A stretch of 51,251 nt of DNA, from NCBI GenBank assembly GCA_021154885.1, contig JAJKHS010000074.1, positions 1 through 51,251 on the forward strand. The letters are read 5' to 3'. The notes below the pieces were generated by a model, which worked only from the letters and a program-made list of their open reading frames with translations, made no database searches and was not told where the DNA came from. Below, piece after piece: positions 33,140 through 37,490 of the stretch (position 1 is its first letter; each line of letters opens with the position of its first letter). The stretch is from Thermoanaerobaculum sp. (GTDB lineage: Bacteria > Acidobacteriota > Thermoanaerobaculia > Multivoradales > UBA5704). Position numbers and translations under genes: made by a program.

Positions 33140-33195
33140 TCTTGCAGAAATCGTCTTGCAGAAATCGTCTTGCAGAAATCGTCTTACAGAAACAC
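33140..33195. repeat. 14-bp direct tandem repeat, four copies
   Basis: Three identical units of TCTTGCAGAAATCG (33140-33181) are followed by a degenerate fourth (TCTTACAGAAACAC). The array lies between the end of rpmG and the start of sodA. The AT-richer composition stands out locally. It could be a slippage-made minisatellite or a row of binding sites upstream of sodA. Confidence 0.85.
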
Positions 33196-34530: not shown

Positions 34531-35481
34531 ATGCTCCGCGTCTTCACCAGCGCCGCCTGTCTCGACCACCGCACGCCTCCGGGCTACCCGGAGAAGCCCG
34601 AGCGGCTCGCCGGCGTGATGGCCCGCCTGCGGGAGGGGGGCTGGGCGATTGAAGAGGAGATGGAGGAGGAAGAGGCCGGCGCCGCCGCCCGCGACGCCGT
34701 GCTGGCCGTCCATGACGAGGCGTACGTGGCTCGCTTCGAGCGCGCGGTATCGCGCGGCGACTCCCTCCTCGACGCGGCGGACAACCCGTTGTCCGCCGGC
34801 ACCTGGAAGGCCGCCTGGGCGGCGGTCGCGGCCACGCTGGCGGCGGCGGACTGGGTGGCGGGCGCCGGCGACCGCACGGCCCTCGCGGCGGTGCGTCCGC
34901 CCGGCCACCACGCCGAGCGCTCGACGGCCATGGGCTTCTGCTTCTTCAACAACGTCGTGGTGGCCGCCGAGCACCTGCGCCGCCGCCACGGCGCCGCGCG
35001 GGTGGCGATCTTCGACTTCGACGTCCACCACGGCAACGGTACGCAACACAGCTTCGAGTCCCGCGCCGACGTCCTCTACGCCAGCACCCACCAGTATCCG
35101 TTCTACCCCGGCACCGGCGCCGCGGCCGAGACGGGCCTCGGCGCCGGCGAGGGCTTCACCCTCAACGTCCCCCTGCCCGCCGGCACCGGCGACGAGGGCT
35201 ACGCCGAGGCGATCCGGACCCAGGTCCTGCCCGCGCTGCGGCGCTTCGCCCCCGACGTCCTCCTCCTCTCCGCCGGCTTCGACGCCTGGCAGGCCGACCC
35301 GCTGGGCGGCATGCGCGTCACCCGCGACGGTTTCCGCGCCTGGGGCGACTGGCTGCGCGAGTTGGCCGCCGAGCTCTGCGGCGGCCGCATCCTCGCCCTC
35401 CTCGAAGGCGGCTACGACCTGCGCAACCTCCCTCTCCTCGTCGAGGACCACCTCGCGGGGCTCGCCGGCGGCCGGCCGTAG
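34531..35481 (+). CDS. Histone deacetylase superfamily amidohydrolase
   Basis: This 316-residue protein belongs to the acetoin-utilisation/HDAC-like family of zinc amidohydrolases. It begins VFTSAACLDHRTPPGYPEKPERLAGVM. The catalytic core includes the histidine pair in RPPGHHAERSTAMGFCFFNN, the Asp/His zinc ligands in FDFDVHHGNGTQ, and a third Asp in LLSAGFDAWQADPLGG. The C-terminal catalytic segment is LLEGGYDLRNL. It probably deacetylates small amides or polyamines. The frame stops at TAG 35479-35481. Beyond it, the same frame stays open for 83 codons that consist of the 21-base repeats (see the repeat entry), which is unusual. Confidence 0.93.
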   Translation: MLRVFTSAACLDHRTPPGYPEKPERLAGVMARLREGGWAIEEEMEEEEAGAAARDAVLAVHDEAYVARFERAVSRGDSLLDAADNPLSAGTWKAAWAAVAATLAAADWVAGAGDRTALAAVRPPGHHAERSTAMGFCFFNNVVVAAEHLRRRHGAARVAIFDFDVHHGNGTQHSFESRADVLYASTHQYPFYPGTGAAAETGLGAGEGFTLNVPLPAGTGDEGYAEAIRTQVLPALRRFAPDVLLLSAGFDAWQADPLGGMRVTRDGFRAWGDWLRELAAELCGGRILALLEGGYDLRNLPLLVEDHLAGLAGGRP

Positions 35482-35502
35482 AAGCCCCTCATCACCCCGA
35501 AC

Positions 35503-35733
35503 CCCGTCGCAGGCCTCGCCAGGCCCGGCATTGGCATCGCGAGGCCCGTCGCGGGCTTCGCCATGCCCGTCACGGGCCTCACGAAATCTCGTATCGGCCT
35601 CGCCAGGCCGGTCACGGGCCTCGCGAGGCCCGGTCAAGGCTTCGCGAAGCCCGTCAGCGGCCTCGCGAAGCCTCGTATCGGCATGGCGAAGCCCGGCATC
35701 GGCTTCGCGAAGCCTGTGACGGGCCAGCGCTGA
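35503..35733. repeat. 21-bp tandem repeat array with palindromic cores
   Basis: Eleven units (the last shortened) follow the HDAC stop in the same frame and end at TGA 35731-35733. On the plus strand they encode heptads of the type PVTGLAR, with Gly invariant, Leu/Ile/Phe/Met at one position and Arg/Lys at another. Each unit contains a core such as GGCCTCGCGAGGCC or GGCTTCGCGAAGCC, which is a near-perfect palindrome. The outer pair changes together (C-G or T-A) in several units. Because of the palindromes both strands encode GLARP-like peptides. The period of 21 bp is two helical turns. The first 7 codons after the stop (35482-35502) are non-repetitive. Confidence 0.85.
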
Positions 35734-35793
35734 CCACGGGACCGGAAGCCGCCGCGCCTCGGGTCCTATCTTTCCCCAAACGTTTCCCCTCCG

Positions 35794-35892
35794 GGCCCCC
35801 TGGGACCGCCGGCGTCCCGCCGGCAACTAACTCCTGTTTTAAAGAAGAAGCGGAGTAAGTGGCCGGCGGGACGCCGACGGTCCCAGGGGGCC
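35794..35892. repeat. 31-bp inverted repeat (MITE-like or palindromic element)
   Basis: Left arm 35794-35824 (GGCCCCCTGGGACCGCCGGC...) pairs with right arm 35862-35892 at 30 of 31 positions, around a 37-base spacer. The first 15 bases of CCTGGGACCGCCGGC are found again at the right edge of the window (51237-51251). It is therefore likely a dispersed element rather than a single terminator. Confidence 0.8.
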
Positions 35893-36025
35893 TGGCTCAG
35901 AGGGTCGGGGCGGCAAGGAACCTCTCCAGATACCTCACCTCCCGCTCCCGTCGCCCAGATCGGGCAAGCTCCGCCTTGGCCTCCTCGCCGGGAGTTGCTG
36001 GGACTGAGACCATCAGGGCCAGGCC

Positions 36026-36059
36026 GAGACGCCCCGCGGAGTTCCCCACGGGGCGTCTC
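36026..36059. repeat. Perfect 11-bp inverted repeat (hairpin)
   Basis: GAGACGCCCCG (36026-36036) and CGGGGCGTCTC (36049-36059) pair perfectly with a 12-base loop. It sits in the same spacer as the 31-bp inverted repeat. It could be a terminator or a second dispersed palindromic element. No T-run follows on the plus strand. Confidence 0.7.
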
Positions 36060-36106
36060 TACAATGGGATGGCAGGACGGCTCACCCTATAGACGAACGC
36101 CAATGA

Positions 36107-36135: not shown

Positions 36136-36251
36136 CCCCCAAAGTTCACGTAATACTTGAAGGGTGACCGTATAGGTCCGCGTCCTTCGGCTGTTTCCGA
36201 CGATTCACACCGGGGTTGCAGGGCGGAGGGGTTGTGGAGGAGGTAGGAGCA

Positions 36252-37490
36252 ATGAAGCGCAACGTCATCCTGTTTGTGCTCGCTTTGGCCGTGCTGGCCG
36301 CGGCTCCGGCGTTCGCGGCGGCGCCGTTCGGCTGGTTCGGCGGCATCCTGGGCGCGGTCGACAATGCCGGGTCGGGGGTCATCCCGGTGGCCGGCTGGGC
36401 GCTCGACGACAACGGCATCCAGAACGTCGACATCCTGGTGGACGGGGCCGTCGTGGGACGGGCCTTCTACGGCATGGCCTGGGAGGGGGTGGCGGCGAGG
36501 TACCCCAACTTCCCCGACTCGGCGCTGCCCGGCTTCGGTTTACTGCTCGATTCCACCCGCTTCCTGAACGGCCGCCACACCGTGCAGCCACGGGTGCGCA
36601 GCCGTGCCGGCGAGGTGGCCCTCCTGGAGCCGCGGGTGATCCAGTTCACCAACAACGAGACCGTCCTGCTGCCCTTCGGCACCATCGAGTTCCCCAAGGC
36701 TCATGCCGAGCTGCGCGGCAACTGCGACCTGACGTCGCCGAACCGCCGCTTCAGCGTCATCTCCGGCTACGCCCTGGACCCCGGCCTCACCGATCTGGAC
36801 ACCGGCGTCGCCTACGTCCAGCTCTTCATCGATCGCGCCCTGGTGGCCGACACGGACCTCGACTGCGGCTCCTTCGACATCACGGGCGGCCTCACCGACT
36901 GCTACGGCCTGCGTCGCCAGGACGTCGAGCGGCAGTACCCGGGTCTCAAGGACAGCCCCCACAGCGGCTTCCGCTTCGTCCTCGACATCGGCGCGCTGGT
37001 GACCAGCCCGGAGCCCGGCGTGGTCGACGCGCCGTTCAACCAGGGCGCGCACATCCTGACCGTCCGCGCCGGCGACCACGCCGACCAGGTGCGCAATATC
37101 GCCGAGATCCCGGTCACCTTCTTCTGCGACCAGAACAACAGCAACGAGAATTCGTTCGGCGACATCGACGTGCCGGCCCGCGGGTTCATCTACAGCGGCG
37201 TCATCCAGACCACCGGCTGGGCCCTGGACTGGGAGGGGGTGAAGACTGTCTTCATCCAGGTGGACGGCAGCCTCGTCGGCGCCGCCAACTTCGGTATTCC
37301 AAGGCCGGACGTCGGCGAGCTGGCCTTCCACCCCGGCTATCCGGACAGCTCCGCCCCCGGCTGGCGGTTCGCCCTCGACACCCGGCAGTTCTCGGACGGC
37401 GAGCACTTCCTCGACGTGGTGGTGCTCGACAGCGCCGACATCCACACCATCATCGGCCGGCGCCGGTTCGTCATCGGCAACGGCCAGTAA
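36252..37490 (+). CDS. Secreted protein with three Ig-like repeats
   Basis: This 412-residue exported protein has a signal peptide (MKRNVILFVLALAVLAAAPA-FAA). ATG 36252 follows GAGGAGG. Three similar units of about 90-120 residues are visible. Each has a VxGWALDxxGI/V...VxILVDGxxVG pattern, then a PGF/GWxxxLDTxxFxxGxH segment (for example GWALDDNGIQNVDILVDG at the start and GWALDWEGVKTVFIQVDG near the end). These look like bacterial Ig-like or beta-sandwich modules, probably a cell-surface or secreted adhesin-like protein. Asn/Gln- and Cys-containing segments (FFCDQNNSNENS) lie between units 2 and 3. It is monocistronic and ends in a hairpin terminator. Confidence 0.75.
   Translation: MKRNVILFVLALAVLAAAPAFAAAPFGWFGGILGAVDNAGSGVIPVAGWALDDNGIQNVDILVDGAVVGRAFYGMAWEGVAARYPNFPDSALPGFGLLLDSTRFLNGRHTVQPRVRSRAGEVALLEPRVIQFTNNETVLLPFGTIEFPKAHAELRGNCDLTSPNRRFSVISGYALDPGLTDLDTGVAYVQLFIDRALVADTDLDCGSFDITGGLTDCYGLRRQDVERQYPGLKDSPHSGFRFVLDIGALVTSPEPGVVDAPFNQGAHILTVRAGDHADQVRNIAEIPVTFFCDQNNSNENSFGDIDVPARGFIYSGVIQTTGWALDWEGVKTVFIQVDGSLVGAANFGIPRPDVGELAFHPGYPDSSAPGWRFALDTRQFSDGEHFLDVVVLDSADIHTIIGRRRFVIGNGQ

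Follow-up and report, generated by a model that had tools for sequence, protein, structure and literature searches.

The array of short palindromic repeats behind an HDAC-like gene in the window (the whole 51,251-nucleotide stretch of Thermoanaerobaculum sp. DNA analyzed here) belongs to a dispersed, mostly intergenic family that numbers about 25 arrays, all built on one degenerate dyad motif, GGNNTCGCGANNCC-N7, with units recurring in a fixed phase. Whole elements of about 200 to 250 bp exist as copies in two subfamilies, in both orientations and with inverted outer units; the window array is missing at the orthologous site of two congeners and one family relative, and relatives carry the same architecture with another sequence. 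The explanation that we prefer, and to which we give roughly an even chance of being correct, is that the window array represents a single copy of a dispersed, nonautonomous, foldback-like intergenic DNA element whose phased dyads are kept or copied by a process acting at the DNA level.

The body of such an element consists of phased 21-bp units in series, mostly 8 to 14 of them, each roughly dyad symmetric about two axes, one at the center of TCGCGA and the other at the center of the 7-bp spacer. With two dyad axes in each unit, every turn of the helix brings a new half-unit of about 10.5 bp, the orientation alternating from one to the next. In two subfamilies, the outer units form imperfect terminal inverted repeats. 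We hypothesize that a trans-acting enzyme might move or copy the element and the phased dyads might persist through contact with a putative dimeric or structure-reading protein along one face of the DNA. The main rival to a mobile element is a local copying process; the whole-element copies and the conservation of the core lead us to favor the mobile-element reading.

The window array and its family in the genome

Ten clear 21-bp dyad units occupy positions 35512 to 35721 (+ strand), each with the core GGC-N-TCGC-N-A-N-GCC plus a 7-bp spacer. The first-pass annotation had counted eleven; its period and dyads are confirmed, but the eleventh unit is reached only if a weak, degenerate initial unit at 35491 to 35511 (+ strand) is admitted. 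Both ends of the array are degenerate. Identity at lag 21 was 0.653 in this array, compared with a mean of 0.297 and a maximum of 0.401 in 2,000 shuffles, and the remaining lags from 15 to 29 gave 0.19 to 0.36. The best palindrome at a half-width of 30 scored 0.767 (200 shuffles, 0.551; sd, 0.036; maximum, 0.667). Both the period and the dyad symmetry lie far outside the values for same-letter shuffles. The window array is real; it was also detected by TRF, with 42- and 84-bp periods scoring higher. The cores had been described as palindromic with an invariant GGC. Dyad symmetry does exceed that of shuffles, but only 3 of the 10 cores (at 35617, 35638, and 35701) are perfect palindromes, and GGC, which starts all ten clear window units, is less constant in the wider family, where only 141 of 259 units have C as their third base.

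The family was recovered by several searches of the 8.2-Mb draft genome. A two-unit pattern (up to 2 mismatches) matched 83 times on the forward and 99 times on the reverse strand, compared with 0 and 2 for the control. A four-unit model built on sequence alone gave at least 124 matches at at least 23 places; the first look with this model scored 150 of 11,298 candidates, so that 23 may be a lower bound. Two further arrays lie beyond these, one on contig C23 and the other beside an IS200-type gene. The latter (L172, 2004 to 2165) consists of eight 21-bp units with GATCGCGA cores adjoining the transposase gene. Unit-by-unit reading of 24 arrays yielded 259 units, with 5 to 14 (mostly 8 to 14) per array. 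With chaining that admitted only spacings of 20 to 22 bp, 207 of the 235 spacings were 21 bp, 24 were 20 bp, and 4 were 22 bp (mean, 20.91 bp); the dyad units thus stand in helical phase, as would be expected of a phased array for a dimeric protein. Higher-order repeats of 42 and 84 bp were present within arrays.

According to a simple codon-based gene caller, 19 of the 24 arrays overlap no predicted gene. The overlap at the window array is an antisense open reading frame running through the HDAC gene, that at L027 is a weak gene call, and the short array L036 lies inside a predicted gene; the arrays at L043 and L070 also overlap predicted genes, of provisional extent. Flanking genes were tandem for 11 arrays, divergent for 5, and convergent for 5, with 3 arrays unassigned. 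The search for a conserved neighbor gene that the first-pass annotation had suggested came out negative: a Pfam scan of 20 neighboring proteins revealed no domain in common, and the arrays adjoin many unrelated genes.

Phased dyad arrays of other motifs also occur in this genome, at L092 (11079 to 11655), L103 (16477 to 16897), L109 (7040 to 7303), and L100 (2633 to 2860), each motif being met once in the sampled DNA. Separately, a near-perfect 21-bp repeat, GCGATGACTGCTGCCGGGCCA, lies near a contig end (L072, 7180 to 7682); it looks nonpalindromic and may be coding.

Whole-element copies, their ends, and the window site

Four arrays (L028, L029, L033, and L071) were mutually 81.5 to 89.5% identical across 190 to 231 bp, three others (L026, L027, and L039) were mutually 78 to 83% identical across 225 to 235 bp, and each group included one inverted copy. 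Similarity between copies generally stopped within about 25 bp of the array ends or inside them; L033 and L071 have about 50 bp past the array in common, which indicates that copy ends are inexact for that pair. The type B end motif lay on the + strand to the left of its − strand match in all six arrays having both, four of which are homologous copies and so do not represent independent events, and the subfamily C end motif showed the same order in both of the arrays having both; this ordering is partly expected from palindromic units. At the window array, the left end, CCCGTCGCAGGCCTCGCCAGGCC (35503 to 35525, + strand), matched the reverse complement of the right end, CCCGTCACAGGCTTCGCGAAGCC (35701 to 35723, − strand), at 19 of 23 positions, a by-eye count that the palindromic units partly predict. 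In two end-motif searches, 9 of 14 and 26 of 27 matches fell inside known arrays, with no obvious autonomous copy among those; these searches yielded no parent, nor could any transposase be connected with the element. By eye, no target-site duplication was evident at subfamily C ends. A lone end-motif match outside the known arrays, at 56229 to 56252 of contig C25, perhaps marks another array.

The HDAC-like gene upstream of the window array (34531 to 35481, + strand, stop TAG) has orthologues in two congeners (G001 and G002) and in a relative from the same family (G003), and in all three the array is absent at the orthologous site. In the congeners, the leader of the downstream gene (36234 to 37490, + strand) directly follows the HDAC stop. 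The orthologous gap of G001 and G002 lacks about 590 bp (35491 to 36081, no strand assigned), in which the array is accompanied by two further dispersed hairpin repeats. This addition is bordered on either side by TCACCC but contains three repeats rather than the array alone. At the other sites compared, the orthologue of the L029 gene has no array in G003, a weak comparison in which the G001 contig ends about 55 bp past the stop and G002 gave no match. Conversely, neither the genome studied here nor G003 has a counterpart of the G002 array L169 next to the orthologous gene, and there the other flank differs.

The longer of the two hairpin repeats adjoins the array (35785 to 35900); BLAST placed it at four other locations in 688 kb of this genome, and it gave weak matches to Rfam microRNA families below the gathering score. 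The shorter one (36015 to 36070) recurs at two other loci in the sampled DNA. The window also holds a 14-bp tandem repeat, TCTTGCAGAAATCG, in 3.8 copies at 33140 to 33192.

Level of constraint and rival explanations

The half-sites of one unit do not covary. Among 259 units from 24 arrays, the four outer pairs were complementary at a rate of 0.526, compared with 0.532 (sd, 0.012) after half-units were re-paired within their own arrays, and complementarity was not clearly higher when each unit was paired with its neighbor over the spacer (z, 1.2). The first-pass annotation had reported outer pairs changing together across the dyad; within units this does not hold, but between arrays several dyad-related positions do change together, namely, (3,12), (2,13), (17,19), and (16,20), with z values of 4.0, 3.7, 3.4, and 3.2, respectively, all of which are optimistic since the arrays are related. 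The pairs (1,14) and (15,21) were weaker (z, 2.2 and 1.7), pairs (4,11) and (5,10) did not covary, and among nine control pairs (11,12) reached a z of 2.8 and (3,11) a z of −2.9. Differences between dispersed copies, counted in nine nonindependent pairs of seven arrays, affected 33 of 483 sites in the central TCGCGA, 88 of 532 in the spacer, and 118 of 634 in the outer arms. The contrast was clear in subfamily B (core, 0.048; spacer, 0.173; outer, 0.149) and weaker in subfamily C (0.104, 0.153, and 0.252, respectively). Symmetry of the substitution rate ranked first of 21 axes in subfamily B (r, 0.69) and tied at rank 3 of 21 in subfamily C (r, 0.66); pooled values (r, 0.99 for information content and 0.94 for substitution rate) were set aside because they combined arrays of arbitrary orientation. 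The true axis ranked first in 23 of 23 arrays, whose units had been anchored on the palindromic six-mer. Overall, the evidence favors double-stranded DNA as the level of constraint. The first-pass annotation had argued for DNA or RNA; the DNA side of that claim is partly upheld by the dyad symmetry and the conserved 21-bp phase, and no RNA signature emerged.

A role of transcribed arrays as RNA elements, for example as tandem hairpins in mRNA 3′ ends, would fit their strong folding: for 23 arrays, z ranged from −1.3 to −10.8 relative to letter shuffles. However, permuting the order of units left the folding of these 23 arrays no worse (mean z, −0.16 and −0.30), showing that the array as a whole is not optimized as a single hairpin; fold drawings had suggested such a whole-array hairpin, and L040 and L043 lean toward it, but the permutation did not support it. 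Mismatches on the presumed transcript strand were G-U in 74 cases and A-C in 75, without preference, no Rfam family was listed at the gathering score for 35300 to 35900, and 5 of the 21 assigned arrays lie between divergent gene pairs. We therefore regard an RNA element as improbable. A repetitive peptide tail had also been proposed, to which one may add a read-through product that extends the HDAC-like protein; the frame past the TAG is open, as described, for 83 codons through the TGA at 35731 to 35733. Such a coding reading is extremely unlikely, given that 17 of 24 arrays are interrupted by one or more frame-breaking 20- or 22-bp units, that in the two congeners the HDACs stop at this very position with neither a tail nor an array, and that arrays adjoin genes of many kinds.

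A more serious alternative, though in our judgment still an unlikely one, is that the arrays are local minisatellites, each enlarged at its own site through slippage or through hairpin-primed template switching, with a segment of about 10 bp copied alternately forward and inverted and with phase and dyads arising as functionless side effects of the copying machinery. Such a process would fit the occurrence, in a single genome, of unrelated sequences that share the geometry, several of them met only once in the sampled DNA, as well as the higher-order repeats and the absence of unit-level covariation. Against it stand the copies of whole elements at several sites in both orientations, the occurrence of 24 arrays built from one motif, the conservation of core over spacer between copies (weak in subfamily C), and the fact that chaining needed no change in spacing of more than 1 bp, where only 20 to 22 bp was allowed. 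Mobilization of REP-type palindromes by a RAYT transposase appears quite unlikely. Like REP, BIME, and REPIN sequences with their RAYTs (PMC3733652), the arrays are short extragenic palindromes in species-specific families and clusters with possible nonautonomous mobility. The genome also has 12 Y1_Tnp matches, proteins of 305 and 336 amino acids match REP_Tyr_transpos below the cutoff, and one array (L172) adjoins an IS200-type gene. However, no RAYT was found beside the arrays read and no array beside L175 to L177 (6 of the 12 Y1 loci were read), other motifs share the geometry within this genome, and the window array shows no constant tag, with CGTC in 3 and GTAG in none of its 10 spacers. 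The strict head-to-tail phase of about 21 bp also sets the arrays apart, head-tail dimers being reported as absent or rare in REP families (PMC3733652).

Known systems and the same geometry in relatives

Dispersed bacterial palindromes are known, but a strict tandem phase of two helical turns, maintained across differing sequences in neighboring species, was not found described; a literature search, mostly without subscription journals, turned up no account of such arrays, which is weak evidence of novelty. Bacterial MITEs are described as intergenic sequences of 70 to 300 bp with inverted ends and no coding capacity (PMC3733652). The elements proposed here resemble them in size class, in being intergenic and noncoding, in dispersed whole-element copies (two subfamilies of four and three), in the empty window site in G001, G002, and G003, and in terminal inverted repeats (6 of 6 and 2 of 2 arrays having both ends, partly as expected from palindromes). 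They differ from MITEs in having a body composed of tandem dyad units in phase and in that no target duplication or parent insertion sequence was found. The Foldback elements of Drosophila, which are eukaryotic, likewise have inverted arms made of short tandem repeats but are much larger, with other repeat lengths. In plasmid iterons and partition sites, successive repeats are separated by about two helical turns, a spacing that suits binding to a single face of the DNA; unlike them, the arrays number about 25 chromosomal copies, and the 20 neighboring proteins scanned, one of them DnaB-like, share no replication or partition protein.

We tentatively suggest, as a possibility that we would not call probable, that the bacterial family harbors a class of intergenic elements set by geometry rather than sequence. 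Each turn of B-DNA would carry one half-unit, inverted relative to the one before, in many sequences that differ both within a species and from one species to the next. If so, a machinery specific to the lineage would have to produce or recognize dyads at helical spacing irrespective of their sequence. Selection on geometry would then be separable from selection on sequence, and the arrays would amount to a natural series of constructs bearing on whether the helical phasing of dyads is recognized by a protein or arises from the way in which the DNA is copied.

The congener G002 carries its own dispersed family, GGTCTGGAGCAGACC-N6 (unit GGTYTGGAGCARACC plus 6 bp), on 9 contigs. Its motif gave 19 and 25 matches in G002 (control, 0 and 0) and none in the genome studied here, G001, or G003. 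Six G002 arrays, chained at admitted spacings of 19 to 22 bp, had 10 to 15 units with 56 spacings of 21 bp and 8 of 20 bp (mean, 20.88 bp). The check on related genomes that the first-pass annotation called for thus found period and dyads retained while the sequence diverges; its counterargument, that the array might be unique to this genome, applies to the sequence and not to the architecture. A period-and-palindrome scan of 1.11 Mb from this genome, G001, and G003, in samples not selected by motif, found 16 arrays with a period of 20 to 22 or 40 to 43, 12 of them with a dyad z of at least 2.5, compared with 2 with dyads among 13 arrays of other periods (Fisher P = 0.0025). In nine genomes drawn from the order's other families (0.80 Mb), 3 arrays had that period, one of them a doubtful case that stood just at the dyad threshold and looked coding-like by eye, and 13 arrays had other periods, none with dyads; in these samples, the rate of dyad arrays differed between the family and the rest of the order (12 versus 1; P = 0.011). 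Perfect 14-bp “arrays” in G003 proved to be runs of N. An all-against-all comparison of 17 arrays of several kinds yielded four matching pairs at an E value of 1e−5 or better, three of them within one genome; the fourth, a short match that links L043 to the array L075 of G003 (55 bp, 76%), means that their motifs may not be wholly independent.

Beyond these genomes, the exact two-unit pattern occurred on two unrelated contigs in a search of one genome for each of 84,980 species, from which the genome studied here was possibly left out. A further model, R1, matched 5 of 39 relatives at E values up to 0.001 (G002, G003, G026, G012, and G032); the matches in G002 and G003 are dyad arrays of other sequence, and visual inspection of those in G026 and G012 revealed no array. 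The loose pattern was mostly near control levels in the 39 relatives, with the largest excess in G019 (14 versus 5).
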